A stretch of DNA of 64,000 nucleotides from contig NC_090280.1 of NCBI RefSeq assembly GCF_037392515.1, positions 20,955,118 through 21,019,117 of the forward strand, in the 5' to 3' direction. This DNA is from Haliotis asinina (Eukaryota; Mollusca; Gastropoda; Lepetellida; Haliotidae). The notes beneath the pieces were generated by a model, which did not search any database, was not told where the DNA came from, and worked only from the letters and a program-made list of their open reading frames with translations. Positions within the stretch are counted from its first letter, which is position 1. Each line of letters begins with the position of its first letter. Below are positions 553 through 39,272 of the stretch, in pieces. The position numbers were made by a program, and so were the translations under genes.

Positions 553-2857
553 GCAACAGAAAATCCTCACAGGAAGGGCTATCCTAGCCCCGCCTACTTC
601 GATTCCATTAAAGGACCATTCACACAGAGATACATGGACAATGTGCGAGGATACAACTTCCCGGAAATGGTCGCTGCAACTTCAGGTAAACATCCCTACT
701 GCACTACCTGATGGTATTGAATTTTCATACCGTTTCATACCGAGCTAGATACAGGGCAGTATTATCTGGTAAGTTACACAAGTTGATATGGGTTTGATAT
801 GAGCTTCTACAGCATGTTCGATAGGCATCGAAACATCCGAGATGTTGCTGACGCTTTCAAATTCTGGATGAACTTTGGTAATGGGATGTTGTTTCTGCGG
901 CTGGATAGTGAGTTTCAGAACGCTGGGGGGAACATTGTACCTCACATCCTATTGGACAGATCATCAGGAACTGTATACGTCCTTCTTCACAACCATGAAC
1001 AAAAACCCAGTCATGTGAAGCTTAACTTTGACAAAGGTTGGTTCCATCCAATAAGTGGAAAGTCCACATGTGAATATCTGAACTCCCAAAAGAAACCGAT
1101 CCTCGCTCAGGATCAAGCAGTTCACGTCACTAATTCCATGGTAACCGTTCCTGCTGAACCGAGTTGTTACTTCCAGTTCCACACAAGCCACAACGTCAGG
1201 TAAACATCCCTACTGCACTACCTGATGGTATTGAATTTTCATGCCGTTTCATACCGAGCTAGATACAGGGCAGTATTATCTGGTAAGTTACACAAGTTGA
1301 TATGGGTTTGATATGAGCCTCTACAAGTGGGTCAAATGTCCAAGTGGGTATTATAGGAACTATTAACTTAACACACTGATAACTAATAATTTATGGATCC
1401 TTCCAGGGAAGATTTGGCCTGACTGGATAGAAAAATCCGACCACATGGGTCTATTTCCCAACAACATCGACGCTGCTGCAGAGTTTGAGTATCTGACGGT
1501 CAACGCTATGGACAAAGGCGCAAATGGAACCCTACCCTTATTCTTCGAGGTCATCAACGAACCAGACGGCAAGTGGCCCAGCACTAACTGGTCGACATTC
1601 ATCTCATACCACGAAATTGCAGCCAAGAAAATCAAATCGAAATACCCTCAAATAAAAGTGGGAGGACCTACCTATACGGGAGCATCTCGTAACTTTGACA
1701 GCCGTGGATTCAAGGTCTGGAAAAAGATGGCTGACTTTATGGACATGTCTTTGGACCATCTTGACTTCTTCTCCTTCCACTCTTACTTTGGCCTCGACGT
1801 CCACGGAGGTGCTCATCAGTTTCAAGGATCTGAAGCAAAACTGATTGGTCTTCTGGACCTTATTGAGAGTTATGCCCATAAGAAGAAAGGAAGGTCGATC
1901 GATGTAATCATCAGTGAGTATGGCATGGGAAGTGTATCGGGGATGGATGTACAGAAGCCGTCCAGCTTCATTGACTGGGGTTATATCCATCAACACAATG
2001 ACCAAATGTTTACCTTCCTTCAACGTCGTGATGCACTGAGAAAGGTTGTTGCTTTCTTGCTGACTTTCACAGACCTCAAGGGACAAGAAAGCATCAACTA
2101 CAGTTTGTTCGATAGGCATCGAAACATTAGGGATGTGGCTGAAGCTTTCAAATTCTGGATGAACTTTGGTAATGGGATGATGTTTCTGCGGGTGGATAGT
2201 GAGTTTCAGAACGCTGAGAGGAACATTGTACCTCACATCCTATTGGACAAATCATCAGGAACTGTTTACATCCTTCTTCACAACCATGAACAAAAACCCA
2301 GTCATGTGAAGCTTAACTTTGACAAAGGTTGGTTCCATCCAATAAGTGGAAAGTCCACATGTGAATATCTGAACTCCCAAAAGAAACCGATCCTCGCTCA
2401 GGATCAAGCAGTTCACGTCACTAATTCCATGGTAACCGTTCCTGCTGAAGCAAGTTGTTACTTCCAGTTCCACACAAGCCACAGCTTCGCCCATGCTCCC
2501 ACTGTGACCCAGAAAACATACTACTCCACCGACATGGTTGTCCCCATTCACAACACCATCGTCGACGTTAAAGTGAATGTCCCGAGCATTGGTAACATTG
2601 ACTTTGCTCGTCTGAGGATCAGTGTCAGCAGAGACATCAAGGCAACCCATGGGCATCCAAAGACGGTCATGGTGAACAATCACCCCTTGGCCTCCTTCTA
2701 CTCCCTGCAGGCTGGCAAGTCCAGTGACACGTTGTTTGAGACCTTCGAGTATAAGGTCTCTGCCAGCATCATTCGACAGCAGAACGATGTTAAGATGACC
2801 TTTGTTCAAACTGGAGGCTTTGTGTCTACGGCTTCATTGGTCGTGGGTAGACACTGA
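553..2857 (+). CDS. Gene A: secreted clan GH-A glycoside hydrolase, GH86-like agarase/porphyranase type (5' end outside window)
   Basis: Exon 2 is 553-685 (acceptor AG at 551-552, donor GT at 686, phase 1). Exon 3 is 1407-2857, starting G-K-I-W-P-D-W and ending in TGA. Exon 3 is fully open and carries FFEVINEPDGKW (putative acid/base Glu), DFFSFHSY and IISEYGMG (putative nucleophile Glu), the hallmarks of a clan GH-A barrel, then a beta-rich C-terminal part. About 120 residues separate the two glutamates, as known for GH86 beta-agarases/porphyranases; GH39-like or another clan A family cannot be excluded. Exon 1, with the signal peptide, is expected upstream of base 1. The closest paralogue is gene B. 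Oddity: intron 2 contains a second partial copy of exon 3 (806-1195). An AATAAA lies 53 bp after the stop. The family call is knowledge-based; function on red-algal galactans is inference. Confidence 0.78.
682..1324. repeat. Direct repeat of the exon 2 donor / intron start (129 bp, spacing 514 bp)
   Basis: Bases 682-810 and 1196-1324 are near-identical. Both begin TCAGGTAAACATCC, both contain GAGCTAGATACAGGGC, and both end at a CTCTAC/TTCTAC variant. The exon 3 fragment sits between them, so the last four bases of exon 2 and 125 bases of intron have been duplicated. Confidence 0.9.
806..1195 (+). pseudogene. Orphan exon 3 fragment inside intron 2 of gene A
   Basis: About 390 bp matching the C-terminal half of exon 3. 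It starts at the equivalent of MFDRHRNIRDVA and ends at YFQFHTSH. It resembles bases 2103-2483 of gene A and 7030-7410 of gene B, with private differences, so it came from neither exactly in its present state. It is open for about 128 codons but has no catalytic region. The left junction lies at a shared CTACAG and the right junction at a shared CA, followed at once by a second copy of the exon 2 donor region (TCAGGTAAAC). It is a relic of rearrangement within the cluster. It could act as a cryptic exon because both an acceptor-like CTACAG and a donor are present, but joining it to exon 2 would shift it into a frame with an early stop. Confidence 0.85.
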
Positions 2858-2909
2858 GTTATCTTTCCTAAGACATAGAAAGAAATCGCATTCAATATCT
2901 GTTTGATAA

Positions 2910-2915
2910 AATAAA
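2910..2915 (+). promoter_or_regulatory. Poly(A) signal AATAAA of gene A
   Basis: Canonical hexamer in the sequence GATAAAATAAAACAATG, 53 bp downstream of the stop codon. A cleavage site is expected 10-30 bp further on. Confidence 0.6.
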
Positions 2916-3844: not shown

Positions 3845-6800
3845 ATGTGTGCAGTACACAGCGTGGTATGGTTGTTATTCTGTCTGCCGTTGGTGCAATG
3901 CGACGAGACCATCACCATCTTCCCTGAGTTCCTGAAGATTGGAGACAGCATCAACTTCAACAAAGGACGCTGGAATGGCAAGAACGTCCTTGAGAACTCG
4001 ATTGAAGATGTTGCTCGTATCAAACAAATAGGGGGAACTGCGGCCAGATGGGTGAATCCTGACCGCGTCTTTCAGCAAGTAATGTCACTAGAAATTGTTT
4101 AACATTTTGAGTATTTATATTACTCTTTGAAATTCTGTGTGGGCATGAGCTTTCAAGTTAAATGTTGTTCGGTCTTGCGAATTTGTTACTGGTAGAGTTT
4201 CGCCTTTGCCGTGTTTTGGCGACTGTTTTCAGTCTATTAAAGGTTTCTAAATTTTCGGGTCAACTCCATGAATTGTATTTTGCCCGGCATTTTACCTTGT
4301 TAGGCTCTGTACCTATCTCTCTATCTGTACGTACGTGCGCACGTGCATGTGCCTGTGTGCGTGCATGCGTGCATGCGTGCATGCGTGCATGTGACTTTCT
4401 GGAGACGTCATCCAGATTAATGGAATTGATCGTGCTCGTGTCATGCACATTTTCATCTCTGACGTGTGGCGGTGGTTAAGGCATTCGCTCGTCATGCCCA
4501 CATGGGCACAATGTGTGACGCCCATTCCGGCCTGCCAGCCTTGATATTGCTTGAATAGTACTGAACTGACTTACTGACTCATTCATTCATTTCATCAGTT
4601 CTGACAGCAGTTCAGCCACCTGACCTGAACTGAAACTGTCGACGACCATATTACATCTATTGTTTACGAGTAATTGCAATTTTCCAATTCTTGGCAAACA
4701 TCTGCAGCAGTCAGCCCGATAACATCGGGTTCTGGTGTCGGCTGCTGTGACATTGCTGGAATATTGGTGACAGTGGCGTTAAACCACATTAACACACTCA
4801 CTCAGATTGGACACATTCGGCTGAAAAGGTCTTGTACATGTACTTCCTGCACCTTGTATTTGTATCTTTGCAGGTGACCTAAACCTTTGTATAACCTGTT
4901 AATAATTGGCCTTCAACAATGTGCACTATTTTTGTTGCTTTTATTAACTGTTACAAAGTACTTAACTTCATCATGTTATTTGTCCGAACAGGCAACAGAA
5001 AACCCCCACAGGAAGGGATATCCTGACCCCGCCTACTTCGATTCCATTAAAGAGACATCCACAAGAATATACATGTTAAATGTGAAAGGATTCAACTACC
5101 CGGAAATAGTCATGGAAACATCAGGTGAAAGGTCTCCAGCTGGGTTCGCAGTAGAATATTTAATGATTTCAATATGGTTCCATGGCATTTTTGCCTGCTT
5201 TGTTTATACTTTAAGAACTTGCTGTGCTATATGACACCGCATTTTCAATTGAGCCAAATGCATGGTTTTGTGGCGAGTATTTCGGGTTCGCCTTTTATCA
5301 TATAGATATAGCATTTTCAATTTAACCTGTTGGATCCTTTTTGTGCGTTCTGTTCAGCTTTGCGTATCTTCTCAAGGTACCCTATTTCATCAAGGTAATC
5401 CTAGGTTAGTTTGTTATCCCTCGTTTCGGATTCGTGGTTTGGTATGTTTACTTGCAGCAATAGCGATGCGTCCTATACAAATGGTCGCTGAAAGTTTGAT
5501 GTTTCTAAAAGAACAAACTGTATGCTACGTAGGCTGACAGCATAGGGCAGTCTGTTATGTTAGTGACACAGATTGTTCATCCGGACAGTGACATGTTTTT
5601 GTGCAGGTATTTTGGGATAGCTTGTTATCTCAACTGACACAAGGTTCTCGATTCAGCCATTGTAAATGGGTCAGACAGCTTGTGCCACGGTCCCTTGTGT
5701 TTATGTGTCCGCATAAAACGGGTGTGTGCTTGTTAGCTTGTTAAAGAACGAACAGACCTTTGTCTTTGTCTCTGTACTCTCTATACCATTATATATGATA
5801 GACTTGTTGTTAGTCTTAAGCAGAACCCCAAATTCATTCTTACGAAACTTGTGGTCAATCAATACCGAGCAATCACAAGTTGCCCCAAAGCCGTCTGTTT
5901 CACTCTCGTCCGCCAACGAAACCACAAATAGAGGACATGTCGAATCGTTGCGTTGCCGTTAACTGCTCCCAAGGTTCAGGTGATGGTGTCATAATGCACA
6001 GATTAGACGTCCGCGTTTGCACTCTAAACTTCATTACTATTTATAAGGTAGGGGTGGGTGTAGCCTATTGTATCAATGATTCCCTCACCAAATTAACTCC
6101 CCAGGTTGAATTTCCCACATTGGCACATTATTATATCCGCCTTGATAAAAGACAATTTATTATAATGACTAGGATGCACATTTTGCTGAGAATATGCATA
6201 TATATTGCAAACCCGCATCTATATGTAAAATAGCGTGTATTGCGCAACGCCCTTGACTATGACCATAACCTTCTGGCAGTTGTTTTTAGTGAGTATGAAT
6301 TTTAGAAAGAAATAATGTGTAGTTACTTGCAGGTAGGATATGGCCACAGTGGATAGACAAATCCCACCACAAGGGGGCGTTCCCGAACAACGTCGACGCT
6401 GCTGCAGAGTTTGTGTACCTTCACGTTGACGCTGTCGACAAAGGAACGAATGGAACCCTGCCTTTATTCTTCGAGGTCGTCAACGAACCAGATGCGAAGT
6501 GGGCTACCACTAACTGGTCGACATTCACCGCATACCATGAAATCACAGCCAAGAAAATCAAATCGAAATACCCTCAAATAAAAGTGGGAGGACCTACCTA
6601 TACCGGGGCATCATCGAATTTTGACGGCCATGGATACAGAGTCTGGAAAAAGATGGCTGACTTCATGGACATGGCTTTGGAGCATCTTGACTTCTTCTCC
6701 TTCCACTCGTACTTTGGCCTCGACGTCCACGGAGGTGCTCATCAGTTTCAAGGATCTGAAGCAAAACTGTTTGGTCTTCTTGATCTTATTGAGAGTTATG

Positions 6801-7783
6801 CCCATAAGAAGAAAGGAAGGTCGATCGATGTAATTATCAGTGAGTATGGCATGGGAAGTGTATCGGGTATGGATGAACAGAAGCCATCCAGTCTCATTGA
6901 CTGGGGTCATATCCACCAACACAATGACCAAATGTTTACCTTCCTTCAACGTCGTGATGCACTGAGAAAGGTTGTTGCTTTCTTGCTGACTTTCACAGAC
7001 CTCAGGGGACAGGCAAGCATCAACTACAGTATGTTCGATAGGCATCGTAACATCCGAGATGTGGCTAACGCTTTCAAATTCTGGATGAACTTTGGTAATG
7101 GGATGATGTTTCTGCGGGTGGATAGTGAGTTTCAGAACGCTGAGAGGAACATTGTACCTCACATCCTATTGGACAGATCATCAGGAACTGTTTACATCCT
7201 TCTTCACAACCATGAACAAAAACCCAGTCATGTGAAGCTTAACTTTGACAAAGGTTGGTTCCATCCAGTAAGTGGAAAGTCCACATGTGAATATCTGAAC
7301 TCCCAAAAGAAACCGATCCTCGCTCAGGATCAAGCAGTTCACGTCACTAATTCCATGGTAACCGTTCCTGCTGAAGCGAGTTGTTACTTCCAGTTCCACA
7401 CAAGCCACAGCTTCGCCCATGCTCCCACTGTGACCCAGAAAACATACTACTCCACCGACATGGTTGTCCCCATTCACAACACCATCGTCGACGTTAAAGT
7501 GAATGTCCCGAGCATTGGTAACATTGACTTTGCTCGTCTGAGGATCAGTGTCAGCAGAGACATCAAGGCAACCCATGGGCATCCAAAGACAGTCTTGATG
7601 AACAATCACCCCTTGGCCTCCTTCTACTCCCTGCAGGCTGGCAAGTCCAGTGACACGTTGTTTGAGACCTTCGAGTATAAGGTCTCTGCCAGCATCATTC
7701 GACAGCAGAACGATGTTAAGATGACCTTTGTTCAAACTGGAGGCTTTGTGTCTACGGTGGCATTGGTCGTAGGAAGACACTGA
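3845..7783 (+). CDS. Gene B: complete secreted clan GH-A glycoside hydrolase, GH86-like agarase/porphyranase type
   Basis: Exon 1 3845-4078 (78 codons, ends Q-Q, donor GT at 4079), exon 2 4992-5124 (133 nt, phase 1), exon 3 6333-7783; 605 residues in all. The ATG at 3845 opens a signal peptide (hydrophobic VVWLLFCLPLVQC, cleavage probably before DE). The mature N-terminus has FPEFLKIG and GRWNGKN. Exon 3 gives GRIWPQW, FFEVVNEPDAKW (putative acid/base E174), DFFSFHSYFG, IISEYGMG (putative nucleophile E293), then C-terminal beta domains ending VVGRH. All splice sites are canonical and no frame break is seen, so B looks functional. It sits about 1 kb downstream of A, same strand, and is the best model for A's missing exon 1. 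Intron 1 holds two SINE pieces; intron 2 holds a possible THAP fragment. Role in digesting red-algal galactans is inferred from family and host ecology. Confidence 0.82.
4325..4392. repeat. Alternating purine-pyrimidine tract
   Basis: A run of GTACGTACGTGCGCACGTGC followed by repeated GCATGCGT units, almost strictly alternating purine and pyrimidine over about 65 bp. It lies in intron 1 of gene B. Such sequence is known to favour Z-DNA and slippage. Confidence 0.8.
4464..4592 (+). mobile_element. SINE family 1 copy, degraded
   Basis: Contains GGCGGTGGTTAAGGCATTCG, CTCGTCATGCCC, CATGGGCACAATGTGTGACG, a weakened GATATTGC motif and a tail of TGACTCATTCATTC. Located in intron 1 of gene B. Confidence 0.7.
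4729..4804 (+). mobile_element. SINE family 1, 3' fragment
   Basis: Only the 3' half remains: GTTCTGGTGTCGG, GCTGGAATATTGG, AGTGGCGTTAAACC and an ACACACTCACTCA tail. Intron 1 of gene B. Confidence 0.7.
5125..6332. other. Intron 2 of gene B
   Basis: About 1.2 kb without recognised repeat families except the THAP-like stretch near 5937. Scattered short open frames on both strands look random. Confidence 0.6.
5937..6048 (+). pseudogene. Possible THAP zinc-finger start (fragment)
   Basis: From ATG at 5937 the frame reads MSNRCVAVNCSQGSGDGV then IMHRL. This matches the start of THAP domains (M-x-x-x-C-x-x-x-x-C, then G-V-S-L-H-R-F-P in typical members). After about 23 residues the similarity stops and no downstream C-x2-H or the W-P motif is visible. 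A GTAGGG donor-like site follows at about 6048. It may be the first exon of a lost or distant gene, or a relic of a P-like DNA transposon. Only the motif match supports it. Confidence 0.35.
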
Positions 7784-12378: not shown

Positions 12379-15300
12379 ATGAAAAGGTTGACACTTTTCG
12401 TGTGTCTACTGTGCAGTGCAACATGCGATTACACAGTGACCATTTATCCTGAAATTCTCAAGATTGGAGCCGTTACACATTTCAGCCACGGACGATGGAA
12501 TGGTAAGAATGGACTGGACTCACCGGCAAGTATTCCTCATGTTAAGGAGGTTGGAGCGACGGCAGCCCGGTGGTTGAACAGAGATATGGCAGGGGGACTA
12601 TTTGAGAAGGTGGGACATTGAATGTATACGGGAGCCGTACACTTTTTGTGTGTATATTTAGCTGATCAACATAGTGTTTTACATATTTGTATCTGTGTGA
12701 CTGATCCAATGATATCAAGTCTCACATTTCTCAAATATTTTTTCGTCTTCACAGATACTACTGAACAGGCAGGGGATATTCAATAAAACAGATGTCCAAA
12801 CTATTGACATTTTATATCATTAATGTCGATTAGGTGCCTGACTGAGGGTTTGGGTTCGTATCCCTGATGGAAAAAAATACCCGAATTTATATTTTACTAA
12901 AAAAATGTAATCCCAAATATAAGATAGGTTAAGTTCAAGGAAATCCTTTGAAATCTCACAATTCTCCTACGTATCAAACGTTCACACCCACTCGTGTGAA
13001 AGTAGCCACTTTCTTCAGGCAACTATTCTAAACTAGATTTTGCAAAACATTCTATTCTGTTTGAAGATACTGTCTGCACGTGACCTGATGTATTGCAAAG
13101 CGAATTCGAGGCATTGAAAAAGATTATTGTCATGAGGAAACTCATGGTTTCATGGAGTGAAAATTGGTGAATTTTTAACAAAACGTGTCAACAAAACGCA
13201 GCTAACTGATACACTTGCAGTTCATCTGCATGGATTTTGCAGATGTTTTCCCCAATTTAGTAGAGACATACATGTCCGATGTAACCACATATATAACACA
13301 CATAGTGAGTGCTTTAAGTGAGTCTAAATCTTGATGGGTAGTATATTATCTAAGTCCATATACAACCATACAGCATGTATGGTAAGTAATATCACCTCAA
13401 AATATTATCTGTTTCATGCTTTTGTTTTTGAAGTTTGAAATGTTGACGTCTTAGCGTGCGTGCACGCATGCACGGACACTCACTTGACAGTTACTCACTT
13501 GACAGTTACATTTAGTAGTTAGTGAGTAGAGTTTCATGCTGCCTGTTGACGAAAGTTGATACTGAAATGGTAAAGACACTGTACCAAAGTGAGGAATGTT
13601 AAGACACTGTGCCCAAGTGAGGAATGTTAAGTTTTCTTCAGGATGGTCTAACACACTGAACAGTGAACTATTAATTGCACAACTTGTATCGAACTTTGGA
13701 CTGAACACATGCCAACGTTTTCCTTGATACTGTCGACTTGTGAGGCTATCTATACCCTGGCTCTACTTAACACTAAACATTCAGCAAAGACGTTACGAGT
13801 CGTTTTAGATGCGATGAGGTAAATATGAAGAAATGTGTATTCCATTACGTGTCAGGCATCTGAAGACATGAACAAGAAGGGCTACCCTGACCCGAAGTAC
13901 TTTCAGACCCATCAAAAAGAAATCTGTACCAAATATTTGGACAATATGAATGGATATCAACATCCTGAAGTTGTCATGGAAATAAAAGGTAGGTCAGTTT
14001 ATCATCTTGGTTTGAATGAAATGTTTCATGTCTAAAATGTTTTCACGGGAAAGTAAGAGAGAGGAGAGGGACATTGAGAGGGAGAGGGACATTCAGAAGG
14101 TAAGGGCGAGGGAAAGAGAGAGGGTGAGGGAGGGAGATAGAGGGACAGTAAGAGTGAGAGTGAGAGGGACATCGCGATCGAGAGGGGAAGGTGAGGTAGA
14201 TGATCAATGAGAGGGTGAGGATGGGGAGAAGGACATTGAGAGGAGAGGGAGGGCTAGAAACAGTTGTACATCGTCAATATTTGCCAGCATCATCCACCAA
14301 TTGATCTGCATCCAGGTATCACTTGGCCTCACTGGATGGACACCTCTGCACACCACGGATTCTTCCCCAACAACATCGATGCTGCTGCTGAGTTCGTCTT
14401 CCTGTTGGTCGACGCAGTCAACAAAGGAACCAAAGGACAATCACCTAAGTTCTTCGAAGTCATTAATGAACCTGGAAGTCAATGGAAGAACACAAATTGG
14501 ACAACCTTTATCACATTCCATCAGCTTGTTGCTCAGAAAATCAAGGCAAAATATCCCAATATGAAGATAGGAGGTCCAACGTTAACTGGAGCTTCTGCTA
14601 ATTTTGATCGTGATGACTTCAAGATTTGGAATAAGTCGGCAGATTTTTTAGACATGGCTCTGACTCATGGCTTAGATTTTTTCTCATTTCATTCCTACAC
14701 AAATATGCATGTAAGTGGAGGGGCGCATCATTTCCATAGAAATTCTGAATCCAAGATATTTGGTCTTCTAGATCTGGTTGAGAGCTACTCCAACAAGAAG
14801 ATGGGTACTCAGTTCAATGTCATTGTGAGTGAATTTGGTCTTGGGCCATTAACAGGAATTGATGAACAAAAACCATCCACCTTCCTTGACTGGGCATATA
14901 TTTATCAACACAATGCACAGATATTCACCTTTCTACAACGTCGGGATGTCATGAGAAAAGTGGTAGCTTTCTTGCTCACATACACTGATCTCAAAGGGCA
15001 AGCAAGTATTAACTATAGCATTCTTGACAAGACCCACAAGGAGAGGGACATTGCCCAGGCTTTCAAGTTCTGGAAGAATTTCTATGACAAAATGACGTAT
15101 TTGCGAGTAGACAGTCAATTCCATAATGCTGAGAGAAAGATTGTACCTCACGTTTTAGTTGATCAACGCAACGGCAGCCTTACCATTCTCCTACATAACT
15201 ATGACCAAAGGCCAAGTCATGTGAAGCTTTCTTTTGACAAGGGTTGGTTTCATCCGACAAGTGGAAAGTCCACTTGTGAATATCTGAATGCACAGAAGAA

Positions 15301-19345: not shown

Positions 19346-19376
<31 letters not shown>

Positions 19377-26025: not shown

Positions 26026-26429
26026 GGCTATTTATGTACAAAACCCCAATAACTGAATATAATTCGGTTACAATACACAAGTTGCACTTTACGTTATCTC
26101 AGTAAGACGAAATATGATAGGGAATATTACCAAAGGATCTTACAAAACCATTAATACTTGTACTGAAATTTATTATTGCATTAGGTCTATATGACAGAAA
26201 ACAAACCAAACTGCTGTATGTTAACAGTTACAAGGAATGTTCAAATTACGTCTGTCATAAAATCCATGATAAGAAAAGGCTGTGAATACAGTTCAGTTCA
26301 GTTCAAGTCAGTACATGCGGCCCATCCTACTCCAAAGAACGAAATGTATGCGTTTTACTACTACTTCTACAAGCCGAGTATAAATGTCGTTTAAAGAAAT
26401 TCTGGAGTACAGAGCTTAATGCTCGAAAG

Positions 26430-27330: not shown

Positions 27331-27477
27331 TCATTTTAAATTAAGTGACCATCTTCCAGTGGTTAAGGTATCGAGAAAGATTGCTTTTTGCTGAACCAAC
27401 AGACCAAACACGCACACGCATACGCAACACTTTGTTTAACAGTAATGACAAGCTATAGATGACCATCACCTCACATT

Positions 27478-27615
27478 GCGATGAACTTTACTGGACAAAA
27501 ATAGGGATATATGCAAATTTTGAAAATTTCAATAATGATATATTTACTCATTGACACGCGGATAATATATCAATCCTAACGTAATTTGTCCAGTACATTT
27601 CTGAATATACGTCTA
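27478..27615 (+). mobile_element. Internal piece of the LINE 1 3' UTR, unit 1
   Basis: Aligns with 10785-10910 of LINE 1: AATTTTGAAA, AATAATGATATATTTACTCA, TTGACA then GATAATATATCA, and TTGTCCAGTA. The terminal tail is absent. Confidence 0.6.
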
Positions 27616-28004
27616 GATGACGTACCCTACCCTAGATGACGTCAAGGGTAAGTGCTAGATGACTATTTTCTTCGCAGCATCACTATCACGTTAATGCATA
27701 TTATCAACACCTGGCGTTAGCATGACAGACCAGCATTTGACCCACTAGGAAATCCCAAAAGTTAATCAGGCTAACTTTTCTGAAGCTGGTTCTAATTGTT
27801 GTTGTGAATAATGTTTCTTTTTTTTCTACCCTTTTCATGTGCTCGATTTTCGTTCCATATCCGCATGAATACAGCTATATGGAGAAAGCTATATTTCTCC
27901 CACACGTTACACCCAGTTGTATACAAAAAGGTTCGTACACAATATTATGTCTTAATCTGTTCGTTACCTGTGTCGGCGCTAAAACAACGTCACAGACGAT
28001 CAAC

Positions 28005-28085
28005 AGCTTGAGCATCGATCTACGCAATTGGGATTCGATGATAAGAGTAAACCAAGTCAGCGAGCCTGTACCAGAAGCATAGGAT
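28005..28085 (-). mobile_element. SINE family 2 fragment, unit 1
   Basis: Antisense body fragment: GATCAACAGC, TGAGCATCGATCTACGCAAT, TGGGATTCGATGATA, AACCAAGTCAGCGAGCCTG. Confidence 0.75.
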
Positions 28086-28639
28086 GCTGACGAATTCTAT
28101 CCTGTTTAAATCCCAGTCAGGCTGGTGCCACATGCATCATTATTCGAAGCCAAACACCCTGTTTCAGTATATGTTGGATTAAATACACTGCACACCCGTG
28201 TTGATTACGTGGCTGTTCTACCAGCAAGTAGAACCTCCTAAGGCTTAGCGAAAAGTGAAAACAAAATAACGATCGTTTGTTCAACAACATTTTCATTCGA
28301 GTGTCCAAAAGTATGAGGCAAAATCAATCTTAGTAGGTCTGCCGATTTCATGTGACTGTACAAAATTTGCTTTTCTTAGAATTATTGGATTGTCTGCTAG
28401 TGAGACAAGTCATCGGTCTCACATGAAATCAAACGGACTGCTGGGATCGTGAAGATCTACGGTGCTTCCGGTTTCGGCATGATTCCAAGCAGGATTTTCG
28501 CAATCATTTTTGTGATCAGTGCATGGGGGGAAATGGTACAAATGTTCAAAGAAAACACGAAAAAATTGTGTCCAGGGACACGGACACTCCTGCTGCTGTA
28601 GGAAGCGTTCCCTACACTGAGTGTGCTCAGGTGATTAAT

Positions 28640-29400
28640 TTCTCCTAGACAATTTCAATAAATATCTATGCAACTATGAGATGCACTGTTTTACAGTGAC
28701 CTTCCGAGTCCCAAAGAAACACAAGTGTAAGCTTAATCAGTTCTGTTGGGCAGTTTTCCTGGGGAAGTGGATAGACTTAACCTCTATTTCACTATCATCA
28801 GAGAGAATTCCACAAAATTTATCTAAGTTCAAATGGTTCTAAACATGCAAAAATCCATACAGTACAAAAAAATATGAGGTGCACACCTTTAGATATGTAT
28901 GCTGAGTGACTTTTGTGCAGTATTTTTTTTTAGGAGAAGTGGATAAAGTACACCCCCGTTTGTATGGGACGAACCGGATGAATAGTTCCAAATTCAGCTA
29001 CGTTCAAACATGTATAGACGTGACACAATTAAGAAAATGGATGAACAAGGAACGAGATGCACATCTTTAGAGACCCACTGAAACACACCTATAAGCTCAA
29101 TCAATTCTGTTGAGCAGTTTTTGTCGATAAGTGGACAGACTTCACGCCCTATTACACCATCATCACAGAGAAATTCCATAAAATGCACCTAAGTGCAAAT
29201 GTCTCCAAACTTAAAAAAAAGCCCAATATAATACAAAAACGAAATATGAGATGCCAACCATTAGAGTCCCAAGCAAGGTCATATGTAAGTTCATTGAATT
29301 ACACAGAGCGTTTTTTTCTGGAGAAGTGGATACAATACATTCCCTGTTTCGCACGGACGGCTGTACGGACACGGAGGGTAACCCAATATGTATGGTTTGT
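28640..29400. repeat. Four diverged tandem copies of a ~190-bp repeat, unit 1
   Basis: The start motif GAGATGCAC (or GAGGTGCAC/GAGATGCCA) recurs at about 28678, 28873, 29053 and 29247. Each is followed by CTTTAGAG.CCCA, AAGC..AATCA.TTCTGTTG, GAGAAGTGGATA and CACAGAGAATTCCA.AAAAT. Spacing is 180-195 bp. No family recognised. Confidence 0.75.
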
Positions 29401-29768
29401 TACTACTCTCAAAACATTAAGACACAATATAAGTATCATGTCGTACTAACACAATAAAAGGTAACAAATATTGGAACATGTCCAATTTTCGTTTTAGTCT
29501 TTTGACACAAAGATTCATTTCCACACAAATTGAGCTCGAGATGATTTCATGTAGAATTTCTGATTGAATGGAGGCCAAATCTGAAATCATAAATACATCA
29601 AATGTTTCTTTTGGGTTCGAAATGTAGAGCACCTCTTTCAATCTATTTATACTTTACACTTACATTTCAATCTAAATCACATCAGGTACAGTGACTTTTC
29701 AAATTACTTCATGAATTACCTTTAAGTCTTTCTCTGACGTGTTATTAGTGTGATAGTGTCTATATTTG

Positions 29769-29820
29769 TAATGGGGATTGTGCGGCTGATAAGATAACAA
29801 CATTCTTTCCTACGGATGTA
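29769..29820 (+). promoter_or_regulatory. Proximal promoter of gene E
   Basis: GTAATGGGGATTGTGCGGC then TGATAAGATAACAACATTC (overlapping GATA sites 29788-29798) and TGTATATGAGAGG as TATA-like box. It is almost identical to the gene C block. Confidence 0.6.
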
Positions 29821-29873
29821 TATGAGAGGCCATGTCAGTTGATTAGCACGGTTTCCTCGTGAAAGAAATTGAA

Positions 29874-31024
29874 ATGAAATGGTTGACACTTTTCGCGTGT
29901 TTTCTGTCACGCGCAAGATGCGATTACACAGTGTCCATTTATCCTGAAATTCTCAAGATTGGAGCCGTCACTCATTTCAACCACGGACGATGGAATGGTA
30001 AGAATGGACTGGACACACCGGCAAGTATTCCTCATGTTAAGGAGGTTGGAACGACGGCATCCCGATGGCTGAACAGAGATATGGCAGGGGGACTATTTGA
30101 GAAGGTGGGAGAATGTTGTATTATATCAGCACGTGGTAGCCGTATTATAATTCTTGTTTATGCTAATTTAGCTCATCAACATGTTGTTTTTGTGGGTTCT
30201 CCAGTTGTGGCTCCAGTTTCGTGGGGATTGTTTGAGACAGATGTCTCATCATTTCCATTCGTATATTTCTCAAAATTTAATTTTCCCCTCTTATCAAACA
30301 AATCGGGATACTCAATAAAAGTCAGTTCCGGCCACTGACATTTTATATCATTAATGAGATAGATGGTCCCGTTACACTGTTAAACTAAAACATAAATTGC
30401 ATCCATCTGCGAACGTCAAATGACCATAGGATGTGTTCCATGATTGGCCAAAGCAGCATTTTGTCGCCCTCGGTTCCTCGTCATTAATGTTGTTCATGAT
30501 TTCTGAACAGCGACGTCATCATTGCACATTGAACTTTGAACAAATAGTATGCCACTTTCATCATTGACACTGATGACTTCCCCTCTACCTATTTAACACT
30601 GAACATTCAACAGAAACATTGTTACCAGTCACAATGTTTTTACATGTGGAGAGGTAAATATGAATAAGTAATACTATATTCCATTTAATCGCAGGCATCT
30701 GAACACCCGACCAAGAAGGGCTACCCTGACCCAAAGTACTTTCAGACCCATCAGAAGGAAATCTGCACCAAATACTTGGACAATATGAATGGTTATAACA
30801 ATCCTGAAGCTGTCATGGAGATGAAGGGTAATTCAGTTTTTGATCGTGTTGTTAATACATTATCCAACAGGTAGATTGTATAGTTGAGAGGAATGGCTAT
30901 AGAGGATTTACATAAATTCCAAAAAAGACACATAGAATATTTTGTTATCTGATGCTCACGATTAAAATGAGGAAATTACACAGAGACTGACCCTACGCAC
31001 ATGGGTTGGTTGCAGTGATAACAC

Positions 31025-31059
<35 letters not shown>

Positions 31060-32647
31060 CACAATCACACTGGTCTCTATACCTCTCTCTCAATTCATAT
31101 AAACAACTGTCAGAGAGAGGAGGGCAACAAACACTTGCATTGTGTCATTTTTTGTTGTTCTAACCCACCTGGTTTGTATGCAGGTATCACCTGGCCTCAC
31201 TGGATGGACACCTCTGCACACCACGGATTCTTCCCCAACAACATCGATGCTGCAGCTGAGTTCGTCTTCCTTCTGGTCGACGCAGTCAACAAAGGAACCA
31301 AAGGACAATCACCTAAGTTCTTTGAAGTCATCAATGAACCCGACAGTCAATGGAAGAACACGAACTGGACAACCTTTATCATATTTCACCAGGCGGTTTC
31401 ACAGAAAATTAAGGCAAAATACCCCTATATGAGGGTTGGTGGTCCAACGTTAACCGGAGCTTCCATTCTGTTTGACCGTTATGACTTTAGGAATTGGAAA
31501 CGGTATGCCGACTTTTTGGACATGGGTCTCGACCATTTAGATTTTTTCTCGTTTCATTCCTATGCAAGTTTGGATGTAAATGGAGACTCACACCATTTCC
31601 ATGGGAGTTCTGAAGCTAAGCTTTTCGGACTGTTGGATCTAATTGAGAGCTACTCGCATAAGAAGAAAAATAAATTGTTGGACATCATTGTGAGTGAATT
31701 TGGCCTCGGTCCAGTATCAGGCCTTGATGTACAGAAACCATCCACCTTCCTTGACTGGGCATATATTTATCAACACAATGCCCAAATATTCACCTTCCTA
31801 CAACGTCGGGATGCCATGAGAAAAGTGGTAGCCTTTTTGCTCACATACACTGATCGACTTGGGCAAGCAAGTATTAACTACAGCATTCTTGACAAGACCC
31901 AGAAGGAGAGGGACATTGCCCAAGCTTTCAAGTTCTGGAAGAATTTCTATGACACAATGACGTATTTGCGAGTAGACAGTCAATTCCATAATGCTGAGAG
32001 AAAGATTGTACCTCACGTTTTAGTTGATCAACGCAACGGCAGTCTCACCATTCTCCTACATAACTATGACCAAAGGCCAAGTCATGTGAAGCTTTCTTTT
32101 GACAAGGGTTGGTTTCATCCGACAAGTGGAAAGTCCACTTGTGAATATCTGAATGCACAGAAGAAGGCAACGTTAGCTACAAACCAGCCATTCAATTCCA
32201 TTTAATTCCATGGTCACCGTTCCTGCTGAGGCGAGTTGTTACTTCCAGTTCCACACAAGCCACAGCTTCGCCCATGCTCCCACTGTGACCCAGAAAACAT
32301 ACTACTCCACCGACATGGTTGTCCCCATTCACAACACCGTCGTCGAAGTTAAAGTAAATATTCCGAGTATTGACAACCTTGACTTTGTTCGTCTGAGAGT
32401 TGGTGTCAGTTTCAGCATAAAGTCTCCCCATCAGAAAGTCAAGGCAGTGGCTGTGAACTCTCACACCTTGACGTCCTTTTACACTCTGCAGACTCATAGC
32501 GGCCCTGGTGAAGACACTGTGTGGGAGGTGTTTGAGTACAACGTCCCCAGCAACCTTCTGCACCAACACAACAACGACGTCAAACTTAGCTTCCCTGAGA
32601 CCGGGGGTTATGTGTCAACTGTGGCAGTAATTGTTGGAAGTCACTGA
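29874..32647 (+). pseudogene. Gene E: GH86-like glycoside hydrolase copy with one frame break
   Basis: Exon 1 29874-30104 (signal peptide MKWLTLFACFLSRARC), exon 2 30695-30827, exon 3 31184-32647, all with canonical splice borders. The barrel part is open and has FFEVINEPDSQW and IVSEFGLG. At about 32190-32203 the sequence reads ATTCAATTCCATT where D has AGTTCACGTCAG. The new bases look copied from the adjacent TAATTCCATGG, and the net +1 shift stops the frame at 32205 (ending ATNQPFNSI). A catalytic domain could still be made without the last C-terminal domains (about 440 residues), or the gene is dead. An assembly or polishing error is a real alternative because unit 1 and unit 2 are so alike. 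Upstream ATG-less extension and GTG at 29859 were not used; the ATG at 29874 matches all paralogues. Confidence 0.75.
31021..31062. repeat. (ACAG)n microsatellite, unit 1
   Basis: Tandem ACAG units in intron 2 of gene E, one unit longer than the matching run in gene F (37651-37688). Confidence 0.95.
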
Positions 32648-33051
32648 GGCTATTTATGTACAAAACCCCAATAACTGAATATAATTCGGTTACAATACAC
32701 AAGTTGCACTTTACGTTATCTCAGTAAGACGAAATATGATAGGGAATATTACCAAAGGATCTTACAAAACCATTAATACTTGTACTGAAATTTATTATTG
32801 CATTAGGTCTATATGACAGAAAACAAACCAAACTGCTGTATGTTAACAGTTACAAGGAATGTTCAAATTACGTCTGTCATAAAATCCATGATAAGAAAAG
32901 GCTGTGAATACAGTTCAGTTCAGTTCAAGTCAGTACATGCGGCCCATCCTACTCCAAAGAACGAAATGTATGCGTTTTACTACTACTTCTACAAGCCGAG
33001 TATAAATGTCGTTTAAAGAAATTCTGGAGTACAGAGCTTAATGCTCGAAAG

Positions 33052-33953
33052 CCACCAATTATTTTGCTGTGCCAGTCCTTTCCTATTGGATTGGACGGAA
33101 CAAGACATCGAGAGTCTTGATTGCCTGACCAGAAGGATCATGTCTGATAACAGAGCACACCACCCTCGCTCCTCTGTTAATCGTTTATATATGCCAATCC
33201 ATTCAGGAGGTCGTGGTTTGATTAATGTGGGGGCTCTTTATGATAGAATTTTATTGAGAACTTTTGCACATATTTATTTGTCAGATGATCCCCAGGAGAT
33301 GTACGTTAAGTCTCATGATGAAAACAATTCCACAGCTATTTTGAGCATGCCAAGGTTGTTGGACACTATCTGAAATTTGAAGTTGATTTTGTTGATGGTG
33401 ATGAACTGCCGAACGGTACAGCGATGGGAGTAAAGCAGGTGAAGTTGTTCACTAAGTCTGCTCCGTGTCGGTACTTTTTGGAGAAGCTTTTTGAGAAGCC
33501 ATGTGTACATGCAATGTGTTGGAACAGAACAGCAACCCAACCGACTCCTTTAACTGGATGAAGTCGGCTGGTCTCAACTGTGAAACTGGGGGCTTTCTCT
33601 TTAGCTGCTCAAGATCAGTCACTCCCAACATGTAATCACCAGAATGCGATTCTTAATCAAAATGTTAACATGAAATGTCGATTGTGTAATGAATTTACAG
33701 AGACTGCCCTACACCTCGTCAGTGGACGCCCTTCCTTGGCACAAACAGCATATCTAAAAGACCTAATGGCATGGCTCGATGCTTGAGCCTGAGACGAATT
33801 CTAGCCATTAAACCTTTTTGATAAAGCCAAAGAATTTATTTATATCAGCCCTGAGCTAATGATGATCCTTACCGACCTGACTGTACTAGGATCACCCTAA
33901 CCCGTCTCTGCTGCATTTCTATCTGTAAAATAATAGTATCAATAATGAATCTT
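33052..33953 (+). mobile_element. Non-LTR retrotransposon 3' fragment, copy in unit 2
   Basis: Duplicate of 26430-27330 (same breaks, e.g. CNHQNAIL for CNRQNAIL). It was carried by the segmental duplication, not a new insertion. Confidence 0.7.
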
Positions 33954-34099
33954 CATTTTAAATTAAGTGACCATCTTCCAGTGGTTAAGGTATCGAGAAA
34001 GATTGCTTTTTGCTGAACCAACAGACCAAACACGCACACGCATACGCAACACTTTGTTTAACAGTAATGACAAGCTATAGATGACCATCACCTCACATT

Positions 34100-34237
34100 G
34101 CGATGTACTTTACTGGACAAAAATAGGGATATATGCAAATTTTGAAAATTTCAATAATGATATATTTACTCATTGACACGCGGATAATATATCAATCCTA
34201 ACGTAATTTGTCCAGTACATTTCTGAATATACGTCTA
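34100..34237 (+). mobile_element. Internal piece of LINE 1 3' UTR, unit 2
   Basis: Duplicate of 27478-27615 with one substitution (GATGTAC for GATGAAC). Confidence 0.6.
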
Positions 34238-34627
34238 GATGACGTACCCTACCCTAGATGACGTCAAGGGTAAGTGCTAGATGACTATTTTCTTCGCAGC
34301 ATCACTATCACGTTAATGCATATTATCAACACCTGGCGTTAGCATGACAGACCAGCATTTGACCCACTAGGAAATCCCAAAAGTTAATCAGGCTAACTTT
34401 TCTGAAGCTGGTTCTAATTGTTGTTGTGAATAATGTTTCTTTTTTTTTCTACCCTTTTCATGTGCTCGATTTTCGTTCCATATCCGCATGAATACAGCTA
34501 TATGGAGAAAGCTATATTTCTCCCACACGTTACACCCAGTTGTATACAAAAAGGTTCGTACACAATATTATGTCTTAATCTGTTCGTTACCTGTGTCGGC
34601 GCTAAAACAACGTCACAGACGATCAAC

Positions 34628-34708
34628 AGCTTGAGCATCGATCTACGCAATTGGGATTCGATGATAAGAGTAAACCAAGTCAGCGAGCCTGTACCAGAAG
34701 CATAGGAT
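34628..34708 (-). mobile_element. SINE family 2 fragment, unit 2
   Basis: Duplicate of 28005-28085. Confidence 0.75.
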
Positions 34709-35262
34709 GCTGACGAATTCTATCCTGTTTAAATCCCAGTCAGGCTGGTGCCACATGCATCATTATTCGAAGCCAAACACCCTGTTTCAGTATATGTTGG
34801 ATTAAATACACTGCACACCCGTGTTGATTACGCGGCTGTTCTACCAGCAAGTAGAACCTCCTAAGGCATAGCGAAAAGTGAAAACAAAATAACGATCGTT
34901 TGTTCAACAACATTTTCATTCGAGTGTCCAAAAGTATGAGGCAAAATCAATCTTAGTAGGTCTGCCGATTTCATGTGACTGTACAAAATTTGCTTTTCTT
35001 AGAATTATTGGATTGTCTGCTAGTGAGACAAGTCATCGGTCTCACATGAAATCAAACGGACTGCTGGAATCGTGAAGATCTACGGTGCTTCCGGTTTCGG
35101 CATGATTCCAAGCAGGATTTTCGCAATCATTTTTGTGATCAGTGCATGGGGGGAAATGGTACAAATGTTCAAAGAAAACACGAAAAAATTGTGTCCAGGG
35201 ACACGGACACTCCTGCTGCTGTAGGAAGCGTTCCCTACACTGAGTGTGCTCAGGTGATTAAT

Positions 35263-36010
35263 TTCTCCTAGACAATTTCAATAAATATCTATGCAACTAT
35301 GAGATGCACTGTTTTACAGTGACCTTCCGAGTCCCAAAGAAACACAAGTGTAAGCTTAATCAGTTCTGTTGGGCAGTTTTCCTGGGGAAGTGGATAGACT
35401 TAACCTCTATTTCACTATCATCAGAGAGAATTCCACAAAATTTATCTAAGTTCAAATGGTTCTAAACATGCAAAAATCCATACAGTACAAAAAAATATGA
35501 GGTGCACACCTTTAGATATGTATGCTGAGTGACTTTCGTGCAGTGTTTTTTTTTAGGAGAAGTGGATAAAGTACACCCCCGTTTGTATGGGACGAACCGG
35601 ATGAATAGTTCCAAATTCAGCTACGTTCAAACATGTATAGAAGTGACACAATTAAGAAAATGGATGAACAAGGAACGAGATGCACATCTTTAGAGACCCA
35701 CTGAAACACACCTATAAGCTCAATCAATTCTGTTGAGCAGTTTTTGTCGATAAGTGGACAGACTTCACGCCCTATTACACCATCATCACAGAGAAATTCC
35801 ATAAAATGCACCTAAGTGCAAATGTCTCCAAACTTAAAAAAACCCAATATAATACAAAAACGAAATATGAGATGCCAACCATTAGAGTCCCAAGCAAGGT
35901 CATATGTAAGTTCATTGAATTACACAGAGCGTTTTTTTCTGGAGAAGTGGATACAATACATTCCCTGTTTCGCACGGACGGCTGTACGGACACGGAGGGT
36001 AACCCAATAT
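35263..36010. repeat. Four diverged copies of the ~190-bp repeat, unit 2
   Basis: Duplicate of 28640-29400 with a few substitutions and a 2-bp shorter A run. Confidence 0.75.
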
Positions 36011-36399
36011 GTATGGTTTGTTCTCATCAACAACTACTCTCAAAACATTAAGACACAATATAAGTATCATGTCGTACTAACACAATAAAAGGTAACAAAT
36101 ATTGGAACATGTCCAATTTTCGTTTTAGTCTTTTGACACAAAGATTCATTTCCACACAAATTGAGCTCGAGATGATTTCATGTAGAATTTCTGATTGAAT
36201 GGAGGCCAAATCTGAAATCATAAATACATCAAATGTTTCTTTTGGGTTCGAAATGTAGAGCACCTCTTTCAATCTATTTATACTTTACACTTACATTTCA
36301 ATCTAAATCACATCAGGTACAGTGACTTTTCAAATTACTTCATGAATTACCTTTAAGTCTTTCTCTGACGTGTTATTAGTGTGATAGTGTCTATATTTG

Positions 36400-36451
36400 T
36401 AATGGGGATTGTGCGGCTGATAAGATAACAACATTCTTTCCTACGGATGTA
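36400..36451 (+). promoter_or_regulatory. Proximal promoter of gene F
   Basis: Identical to the gene E block: TGATAAGATAA at 36419-36429 and TATATGAG just downstream, about 60 bp before the ATG. Confidence 0.6.
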
Positions 36452-36504
36452 TATGAGAGGCCATGTCAGTTGATTAGCACGGTTTCCTCGTGAAAGAAAT
36501 TGAA

Positions 36505-37654
36505 ATGAAATGGTTGACACTTTTCGCGTGTTTTCTGTCACGCGCAAGATGCGATTACACAGTGTCCATTTATCCTGAAATTCTCAAGATTGGAGCCGTC
36601 ACTCATTTCAACCACGGACGATGGAATGGTAAGAATGGACTGGACACACCGGCAAGTATTCCTCATGTTAAGGAGGTTGGAACGACGGCATCCCGATGGC
36701 TGAACAGAGATATGGCAGGGGGACTATTTGAGAAGGTGGGAGAATGTTGTATTATATCAGCACGTGGTAGCCGTATTATAATTCTTGTTTATGCTAATTT
36801 AGCTCATCAACATGTTGTTTTTGTGGGCTCTAAGCGAAAGCTCCAGTTTCGTGGGGATTGTTTGAGACAGATGTCTCATCATTTCCATTCGTATATTTCT
36901 CAAAATTTAATTTTCCCCTCTTATCAAACAAATCGGGATACTCAATAAAAGTCAGTTCCGGCCACTGACATTTTATATCATTAATGAGATAGATGGTCCC
37001 GTTACACTGTTAAACTAAAACATAAATTGCATCCATCTGCGAACGTCAAATGACCATAGGATGTGTTCCATGATTGGCCAAAGCAGCATTTTGTCGCCCT
37101 CGGTTCCTCGTCATTAATGTTGTTCATGATTTCTGAACAGCGACGTCATCATTGCACATTGAACTTTGAACAAATAGTATGCCACTTTCATCATTGACAC
37201 TGATGACTTCCCCTCTACCTATTTAACACTGAACATTCAACAGAAACATTGTTACCAGTCACAATGTTTTTACATGTGGAGAGGTAAATATGAATAAGTA
37301 ATACTATATTCCATTTAATCGCAGGCATCTGAACACCCGACCAAGAAGGGCTACCCTGACCCAAAGTACTTTCAGACCCATCAGAAGGAAATCTGCACCA
37401 AATACTTGGACAATATGAATGGTTATAACAATCCTGAAGTTGTCATGGAGATGAAGGGTAATTCAGTTTTTGATCGTGTTGTTAATACATTATCCAACAG
37501 GTAGATTGTATAGTTGAGAGGAATGGCTATAGAGGATTTACATAAATTCCAAAAAAGACACATAGAATATTTTGTTATCTGATGCTCACGATTAAAATGA
37601 GGAAATTACACAGAGACTGACCCTACGCACATGGGTTGGTTGCAGTGATAACAC

Positions 37655-37685
<31 letters not shown>

Positions 37686-39272
37686 CACAATCACACTGGT
37701 CTCTATACCTCTCTCTCAATTCATATAAACAACTGTCAGAGAGAGGAGGGCAACAAACACTTGCATTGTGTCATTTTTTGTTGTTCTAACCCACCTGGTT
37801 TGTATGCAGGTATCACCTGGCCTCACTGGATGGACACCTCTGCACACCACGGATTCTTCCCCAACAACATCGATGCTGCAGCTGAGTTCGTCTTCCTTCT
37901 GGTCGATGCAGTCAACAAAGGAACCAAAGGACAATCACCTAAGTTCTTTGAAGTCACCAATGAACCCGACAGTCAATGGAAGAACACGAACTGGACAACC
38001 TTTATCATATTTCACCAGGCGGTTTCACAGAAAATTAAGGCAAAATACCCCTATATGAGGGTTGGTGGTCCAACGTTAACCGGAGCTTCCATTCTGTTTG
38101 ACCGTTATGACTTTAGGAATTGGAAACGGTATGCCGACTTTTTGGACATGGGTCTCGACCATTTAGATTTTTTCTCGTTTCATTCCTATGCAAGTTTGGA
38201 TGTAAATGGAGACTCACACCATTTCCATGGGAGTTCTGAAGCTAAGCTTTTCGGACTGTTGGATCTAGTTGAGAGCTACTCGCATAAGAAGAAAAATAAA
38301 TTGTTGGACATCATTGTGAGTGAATTTGGCCTCGGTCCAGTATCAGGCCTTGATGTACAGAAACCATCCACCTTCCTTGACTGGGCATATATTTATCAAC
38401 ACAATGCCCAAATATTCACCTTCCTACAACGTCGGGATGTTATGAGAAAAGTGGTAGCTTTCTTGCTTTCATACACTGATCTCAAAGGGCAAGCAAGTAT
38501 TAATTATAGCATTCTGGACAAGACCCAGAAGGAGAGGGACATTGCCCAAGCTTTCAAGTTCTGGAAGAATTTCTATGACACAATGACGTATTTGCGAGTA
38601 GACAGTCAATTCCATAATGCTGAGAGAAAGATTGTACCTCACGTTTTAGTTGATCAACGCAACGGCAGTCTCACCATTCTCCTACATAATTATGACCAAA
38701 GGCCAAGTCATGTGAAGCTTTCTTTCGACAAGGGTTGGTTTCACCCGACAAGTGGAAAGTCCACTTGTGAATATCTGAATGCACAGAAGAAGGCAACGTT
38801 AGCTACAAACCAGCCAATTCACGTCACTAATTCCATGGTGACCGTTCCTGCTGAGGCGAGTTGTTACTTCCTGTTCCACAAAAGCCACAGCTTCGCCCAT
38901 GCTCCCACTGTGACCCAGAAAACATACTACTCCACCGACATGGTTGTCCCCATTCACAACACCGTCGTCGAAGTTAAAGTAAATATTCCGAGTATTGGCA
39001 ACCTTGACTTTGTTCGTCTGAGAGTTGGTGTCAGTTTCAGCATAAAGTCTCCCCATCAGAAAGTCAAGGCAGTGGCTGTGAACTCTCACACCTTGACGTC
39101 CTTTTACACTCTGCAGACTCATAGCGGCCCTGGTGAAGACACTGTGTGGGAGGTGTTTGAGTACAACGTCCCCAGCAACCTTCTGCACCAACACAACAAC
39201 GACGTCAAACTTAGCTTCTCTGAGACCGGGGGTTATGTATCAACGGTGGCAGTGATCGTTGGAAGTCACTAA
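36505..39272 (+). CDS. Gene F: complete secreted clan GH-A glycoside hydrolase, GH86-like agarase/porphyranase type
   Basis: Exon 1 36505-36735, exon 2 37325-37457, exon 3 37810-39272 (TAA); 608 residues, no frame break. Signal peptide MKWLTLFACFLSRARC then DYTVSIYPEILKIG. Motifs: GITWPHWMD, FFEVTNEPDSQW (acid/base Glu about residue 173), DFFSFHSYASLDVNG, IVSEFGLG (nucleophile Glu about 293), C-terminal beta domains ending VVGSH-like VIVGSH. Exons 1-2 are near copies of E. Exon 3 matches E up to about 38430, then switches to a C-like version (DLKGQASINYS), and its 3' flank differs from that of D and E. It is the only intact member of the D-E-F trio. The Thr before N-E-P is Ile or Val in the others; the catalytic Glu is kept. 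Function as red-algal galactanase is inference. Confidence 0.82.
37651..37688. repeat. (ACAG)n microsatellite, unit 2
   Basis: Same locus as 31021-31062, one unit shorter; intron 2 of gene F. Confidence 0.95.

Follow-up and report, generated by a model that had tools for sequence, protein, structure and literature searches.

GH86 is a family of agar- and porphyran-degrading enzymes known chiefly from seaweed-digesting bacteria; its fold is an (α/β)8 barrel followed by two Ig-like domains. Among its described members are BuGH86, the β-agarase of Bacteroides uniformis NP1 (PDB 5ta0 and 5ta1), in which E322 is the nucleophile and the E322Q mutant is inactive, and BpGH86A, the β-porphyranase of Bacteroides plebeius (PDB 4aw7), both as presented in PMC5849685. 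Digestion of polysaccharides by animal-encoded enzymes is represented in abalone by a GH45 cellulase (PMC11025796); this cellulase is of another family and has another substrate than the GH86-like proteins described here, which are encoded at no fewer than 95 loci. GH86 itself appears in the accessible part of an abalone microbiota paper only as a diet-linked bacterial enzyme (PMC5870069). The animal proteins resemble BuGH86 in a near-full-length alignment, in both E200 and E322, in a C-terminal BPA_C domain and in an N-terminal signal, and differ from it in their low identity (~23%), at T82 and its neighbouring columns, in a shortened loop around residues 372-412 and in the two introns of their genes.

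In the window, the whole 64,000-nucleotide stretch of DNA that was analysed, six plus-strand GH86-like loci lie between positions 553 and 39272 (Table 1). The first-pass annotation had described six tandem genes of the same three-exon structure with intron phases 0 and then 1; the six loci are there, but whole genes with this structure and GT/AG ends are found only at B, C and F, whereas A, D and E are broken or truncated. The continuous products of the three whole genes are 605 aa (B, 3845-7783), 609 aa (C, 12379-15781) and 608 aa (F, 36505-39272) long, and their N-termini are hydrophobic and signal-peptide-like as had been claimed, with a highest 8-residue mean of 3.02, 3.00 and 2.57, respectively, on the Kyte-Doolittle scale, which is not a dedicated signal-peptide predictor. 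The N-E-P and S-E-[FY]-G motifs, said to lie about 120 residues apart, place their glutamates at a spacing of 119 residues (E174 and E293 in gene B). With gene B as tblastn query and E values up to 10 allowed, no exon 1 of gene A was detected within 10,000 bases upstream, and such an exon may lie further off; the second intron of this gene contains a partial copy of its exon 3, matching positions 2098-2483. At gene D exon 2 is shortened and frame-shifted, and the frame of exon 3 is broken in both D and E; in an alignment judged by eye, these exon-3 breaks are replaced tracts and not simple homopolymer length changes. Positions 24566-32672 and 31192-39297 are 98.76% identical over 8122 columns.

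Table 1. Features of the six GH86-like loci in the window
Feature	Positions	Strand	Evidence or remark
Gene A exon 2 (no exon 1 found upstream)	553..685	+	tblastn; AG/GT ends read in sequence
Partial copy, middle of exon 3, in gene A intron	807..1192	+	95.9% identity to 2098-2483
Gene A exon 3, open frame	1407..2857	+	Pfam BPA_C 29.4 bits, cut-off 26.2
Gene B exon 1, signal-peptide-like start	3845..4078	+	
Gene B exon 2	4992..5124	+	phase 0 in, phase 1 out
Gene B exon 3: most of catalytic barrel, beta-sandwich, BPA_C; E174, E293	6333..7783	+	
Gene C exon 1	12379..12609	+	
Gene C exon 2	13856..13988	+	
Gene C exon 3	14316..15781	+	
Gene D exon 1 (locus broken downstream)	22094..22324	+	
Gene D exon 2 remnant, shortened, out of frame	23370..23480, end approximate	+	
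Gene D exon 3, frame broken near 25222-25240	24558..26025	+	
Gene E exon 1	29874..30104	+	
Gene E exon 2	30695..30827	+	
Gene E exon 3, frame broken near 32187-32204	31184..32647	+	
Gene F exon 1	36505..36735	+	
Gene F exon 2	37325..37457	+	
Gene F exon 3	37810..39272	+	
Tandem repeat, 6.6 kb unit with D (exon 3)/E/F	24566..39297	+	98.76% identity over 8122 columns

A profile of six animal sequences strongly matched GH86 structures and no others (5ta1, 5.4e-32; the β-agarase 8h97, 3.3e-31, at low identity; 4aw7, 6.5e-25, over chain residues 137-586), the next-ranked match being GH51 at 0.005. In a further search against structure chains the similarity was far beyond chance (5ta1, E 7.7e-24), and hhalign of the animal with the bacterial profile gave 99.9% and E 1.1e-36 over 438 columns. 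Both glutamates are kept in all 25 animal and all 114 bacterial sequences, these 139 unique sequences being retained from 177 matching frames once those below 420 profile positions or 140 bits and exact duplicates were dropped, window loci D and E among the frames so lost. With the plasmid copy of BuGH86 (L012) in the alignment, its E200 and E322 are matched in all 13 animal models and all 40 bacterial rows. The C-terminal beta-sandwich BPA_C (PF18040) scores above its cut-off of 26.2 in A, B and the sampled paralogues L033 and L028 and below it in exon 3 of C (22.3 bits) and F (23.4 bits), and it exceeds the cut-off at 62 places in the genome search. The first beta-sandwich, PF18206 (cut-off 27), reaches 22.7 bits in exon 3 of A, 23.2 in exon 3 of B, 16.3 in C and 17 in L033, with none in L028, and two bacterial GH86 reach 104.9 and 89.7; a genome search with PF18206 gave no matches, the controls being equally without signal, and NCBIfam provided no useful match. 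Of the two outcomes that the first-pass annotation had named as grounds for giving up its proposal, neither appears at sequence level: no other family fits better over the whole length, the best match being GH86 from the barrel through the C-terminal domain, and the two glutamates are conserved and align with E200 and the nucleophile. The six loci are, as judged from sequence, rightly placed in GH86.

The family had been called expanded, which is correct and understates it: the window cluster is one of 11, which are spread over five contigs and together comprise at least 95 loci in the genome. This number is a lower bound from a search that scored 88 of 156 candidates, and for the 27 loci of C6, as for most of the rest, the only record is a search match. 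Some clusters contain near-identical copies (dS is 0 for L034/L035) that may reflect recent duplication or assembly duplication, and the 95 therefore counts assembly places. Exons 1 and 2 have identical splice sites and phases in 12 of the 14 distant loci examined, and ten of those 12, when joined to exon 3, are all open frames of 610-614 aa, the model of L023 being without a start ATG; full models were thus built for 10 of the 14, leaving out L017 and L024, which have a stop in exon 1, as well as L029 and L034, in which the junction with exon 3 could not be placed. Scanning 22 paralogue loci for exon 1 gave a strong match in 14, some of the others being cut by the locus edge, and at L016 and L027 no convincing exon 1 or 2 was seen within 7 kb. 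The host genome has egg-lysin exons that are found in none of 14 control genomes, suggesting an abalone-like animal and supporting the earlier mention of a grazing gastropod.

Several other explanations were weighed. It is highly improbable that the proteins belong to another clan GH-A family, GH5 or GH39, and resemble GH86 through the shared barrel alone: the Pfam Cellulase profile (GH5, PF00150) does score 30.1 bits in gene B against a cut-off of 23.5, and GH39 scores 25.6 bits in gene B against a cut-off of 26 and 26.1, just over it, in gene B exon 3 alone, yet GH39 chains align over only ~50-90 residues, against an alignment to GH86 structures that runs on into the C-terminal domain, and once the profile is built from six diverse animal rows the GH39 matches disappear and GH86 chains alone stay strong. 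A GH5 identity was accordingly rejected, its 25.2-32.5 bits covering part of the 272-position profile and of the barrel and no GH5 structure chain being matched, as was a GH39 identity, which involves only profile positions ~150-238 of 472 at 21.9-26.1 bits. A recent acquisition of the genes from a bacterium of the gut or of algae, or an assembly contaminated with bacterial DNA, would agree with the finding that GH86 relatives beyond the host genome are all bacterial among the bacterial and plasmid collections searched (one set of relatives being the best 80 of 136, and the phylum searches covering sampled phyla with at most three candidates scored per genome, the weakest of which may be of other GH-A families). 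Genome-contig and viral-contig collections scanned with the animal alignment yielded nothing, the peptide patterns being perhaps unsuited to bacterial sequences. However, in a tree of 82 of the 139 sequences, drawn from the host's own genome and bacteria after removal of bacterial rows above 60% and animal rows above 97% identity, the animal rows form one clade with support 100/100, whose stem measures 1.51 changes per column and beside which four divergent, long-branched bacterial rows are placed. In the aligned region no retained bacterial row is more than 27% identical to an animal row; locally, bacterial proteins reach 36% over 88 residues. Identity inside the animal family falls as low as 35%. 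Given the single deep animal clade, its very long stem and the low identity to bacterial rows, we regard both contamination and a recent transfer as very improbable, and reject them also on the introns in identical phases across divergent paralogues and the chromosome-sized contigs (C1 is 106 Mb). The suggestion of possible horizontal acquisition is not established by a clade this deep and long-stemmed with no near donor among the bacterial rows, though an old transfer may have occurred.

That the expansion is mostly non-functional, an array in decay that retains few active genes, we consider improbable. Three of the six window loci are broken or truncated, L017 and L024 carry an in-frame stop in exon 1, and a stop interrupts five of 88 matched stretches, one of them gene D; but 52 of the 62 BPA_C matches lie in exon-3 frames that are free of stops and 484 aa or longer, and dN/dS, at 0.13-0.58 in the 14 scorable of 16 sampled paralogue pairs, is well under 1 and shows that these pairs are under purifying selection. 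A larger, though still minor, chance goes to a family of GH86 fold that has moved away from algal galactans to an animal galactan, a mucus or egg-coat glycan or some other substrate. The low identity to retained bacterial rows, the remodelled -2 region, the shortened loop and the unusual copy number are in its favour. Where BuGH86 has T82, the alignment, which is loose there, shows N in five of the 13 animal models, A in three, K in two, R in two and a gap in one, so that neither the T of the agarase nor the F of the porphyranase -2 subsite is present in any of the 13; F77 of BpGH86A, aligned through T82, has no phenylalanine as its counterpart. Nine otherwise conserved columns are switched in the animals and one loop is ~17 residues shorter. 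The specificity residues of BuGH86-type agarases and BpGH86A-type porphyranases thus appear not to be retained, and because of the -2 position, the switched columns and the shortened loop the substrate of the animal enzymes could differ from that of bacterial GH86. Against a departure from galactans, the catalytic pair and 37 columns are conserved at 90% or more in both groups, and large duplicating families, as a matter of general knowledge, better suit a role in diet.

We propose that the loci probably represent an old animal-encoded branch of GH86. The sequences themselves show the near-full-length homology, the two glutamates, BPA_C, the introns shared by distant paralogues, the purifying selection in the sampled pairs, the large tandem expansion and the hydrophobic, secretion-like leader. 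The window enzymes would most likely be secreted endo-β-galactanases acting on red-algal walls; as the specificity residues differ, the "galactanase battery" of the first-pass annotation is still something that we infer. Under this proposal, the enzymes would be released into the gut from the salivary or digestive gland and would cut internal β-1,4 bonds of red-algal galactans by a retaining two-glutamate mechanism, paralogues may be tuned to different galactans through changes in the -2/-3 subsites, and local copies would be born and lost through unequal crossing-over, of which the 6.6 kb repeat of D, E and F would be a recent example. For the step that follows in agar use, a GH117-like plasmid query gave no match; this search had no positive control, and introns could hide its target.

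More tentatively, abalone-like gastropods may possess an ancient separate GH86 lineage of ~100 genes whose reshaped clefts cover many red-algal galactans, some paralogues having specificities new relative to bacteria, such that the animal itself and not its gut bacteria opens the walls. In our judgement it would be unusual for an enzyme family known chiefly from bacteria to have expanded so strongly in an animal. The family may offer many new candidate galactanases, and with a host-encoded family this large it could be tested directly who digests the red seaweed that grazing snails eat.

The assignment to GH86, which the first-pass annotation had based on motif spacing, is borne out: in a search with a profile of six diverse animal sequences the strong structure matches were GH86 chains only (the agarases 5ta1, 5.4e-32, and 8h97, 3.3e-31, and the porphyranase 4aw7, 6.5e-25), and the best match outside the family was GH51 at 0.0049. 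Exon 3 of gene B alone matches 8h97 (3.2e-18) and 5ta1 (8.1e-18), and a profile of genes B, C and F gave long matches to 5ta1 (7.7e-24), 4aw7 (4.8e-20) and 8h97 (1.4e-19); the matches to GH39 xylosidases were at 2.6e-5 and spanned about 60 residues. Aligned to each other, the animal profile and the bacterial one match over 438 columns (E 1.1e-36). The C-terminal beta-sandwich domain of GH86, BPA_C in Pfam, exceeded its threshold in A, in B and in the two paralogues sampled, and fell below it in C and F; PF18206, the other porphyranase domain, was below its cut-off in the animal sequences scored. PF00150 (GH5) scored above threshold along part of the barrel only, which we read as the common GH-A fold.

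Six loci of one family lie in the window, yet the six three-exon genes originally described come down, on the evidence of reading frames, splice ends and homology, to three complete ones. B, C and F alone are whole, their introns having GT/AG ends and phases 0, then 1. The first exon present in locus A is exon 2, exon 1 not being found by tblastn in the 10,000 bases upstream, and its intron holds a further, partial copy of exon 3. Exon 2 of locus D is partly lost and its exon 3 broken, as is exon 3 of locus E. D to F lie within a 6.6 kb tandem repeat, two stretches of which are 98.76% identical over 8122 columns. Both units carry an identical 118-residue open frame, perhaps a retroelement piece, that had no Pfam match at 0.01; the same search found none for the two open frames resembling by eye a reverse-transcriptase/RNase H remnant.

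Features of the window
Feature	Position	Strand	Description
Six GH86-like loci (A-F)	553-39272	+	one family
Partial exon 3 copy	807-1192		inside intron of locus A
Gene B	3845-4078, 4992-5124, 6333-7783	+	complete, 605 aa
Open frames	9494-10631		two, reverse-transcriptase/RNase H remnant-like
Gene C	12379-12609, 13856-13988, 14316-15781	+	complete, 609 aa
Aligned repeat stretches	24566-32672, 31192-39297		6.6 kb tandem repeat
118-residue open frame	26395-26751, 33017-33373		one in each 6.6 kb unit
Gene F	36505-36735, 37325-37457, 37810-39272	+	complete, 608 aa
Transposase remnant	46725-47566		Tc1/mariner-like; HTH_Tnp_Tc3_2 at 46725-47084 (55.1 bits, cut-off 31.5), then a second open frame in a different frame
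Tandem array	54202-54581		68-base unit, 5.6 copies, 88% matches
tRNA-Thr call	61564-61658		anticodon tgt; possibly a tRNA-derived repeat

The expansion postulated by the first-pass annotation is real and larger than was thought. Searching the 1.14 Gb genome with BPA_C gave 62 matches, all above the cut-off and 52 of them within stop-free exon-3 frames 484 aa or longer, and none in 14 control genomes. United with the matches to gene C exon 3 (a stop lies inside 5 of 88), these make at least 95 loci in 11 clusters, a lower bound as 88 of 156 gene C candidates were scored; 57 loci are on contig C1, 27 on C6, nine on C15 and one each on C3 and C5. Where exon 3 is unbroken, the paralogues retrieved share about 34-40% identity with gene C, and exon 1 was strongly matched in 14 of the 22 scanned for it. 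Read base by base, 12 of 14 loci keep the phase-0 and phase-1 splice sites of exons 1-2, whereas exon 1 of the other two (L017, L024) contains a stop; joining exon 3 to ten of the 12 gave open frames in every case (610-614 aa). Selection is evident in the tested pairs, dN/dS being 0.13-0.58 in the 14 scorable of 16 (A-B 0.26, C-F 0.21, B-C 0.13). Two loci about 93 kb apart on C1 (L034 and L035, at ~29.38 and 29.47 Mb) show a dS of zero, and a neighbouring pair has a similar offset; either recent segmental duplication or assembly duplication would account for them. The same genome holds, on contig C14, six matches to exons of egg lysin, a protein of abalone and related vetigastropods; two contain stops, the 14 control genomes gave none, and one has matches among solved sperm lysin structures (3lyn the best). 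The animal is therefore probably an abalone-like gastropod.

Bacterial relatives were found on plasmids (seven records, ~22-24% identity) and in bacterial genomes (79 loci among the best 80 of 136 relatives). Gene C matched all seven chosen bacterial genomes and 19 of 387, 3 of 395 and 5 of 398 genomes in samples of three phyla, each including its own centre genome picked for holding GH86. A maximum-likelihood tree of 82 rows places all 20 animal rows in a single group (support 100/100), whose stem measures 1.51 changes per column; the group persists after removal of seven long-branched bacterial rows, and the window's four rows are a separate deep subgroup. Since the animals are a single group on so long a stem, with at most 27% identity to bacterial rows over the aligned region, contamination or recent transfer is very unlikely, and the family is older than the first-pass annotation had supposed. 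The tree, which comprises bacteria and one animal genome and sets neither root nor date, fits one old entry or old inheritance.

No animal GH86 was found in titles and abstract openings of open-access literature on GH86 with gastropods, molluscs or invertebrates, nor among the matches listed for wider agarase, porphyranase, abalone and animal literature; subscription papers or CAZy may hold earlier knowledge of mollusc GH86. The accessible text of PMC5870069 names GH86 in bacteria only.

Both catalytic glutamates (E200 and E322 in BuGH86, the Bacteroides uniformis agarase) are kept in all 139 sequences retained (25 animal, 114 bacterial); PMC5849685 describes mutation of E322, the nucleophile. 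A comparison of 13 animal with 40 bacterial full-length rows shows 37 columns conserved to at least 90% on both sides and nine switched between the groups, three of which (BuGH86 76, 77 and 79) adjoin T82. That residue, linked in the same paper to the choice of agarose versus porphyran, is N, A, K, R or a gap in animals, and the animal loop at 372-412 is about 17 residues shorter. The second specificity residue named there, M396, has no placeable position, the plasmid BuGH86 copy that served as reference carrying E at 396. In the data-availability section of that paper 5TA1 bears the label GH16B and 5TA7 the label GH86; 5ta1 in PDB sequences is a 649-residue GH86 chain, so a label looks wrong.

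Because the glutamates are kept but the T82 region and the loop differ and M396 is unplaced, the sequences support the GH86 reaction type well and stop short of the exact substrate. The main rival reading is a changed substrate, e.g. an animal glycan. What the sequences show is homology, the catalytic residues, a secretion-like leader, selection in the tested pairs and the expansion; site of action, endo mode and substrate are inferred. We consider it most likely that the products would be secreted and act in the gut, where they would hydrolyse internal beta-1,4 linkages in red-algal galactans through the GH86 retaining mechanism.
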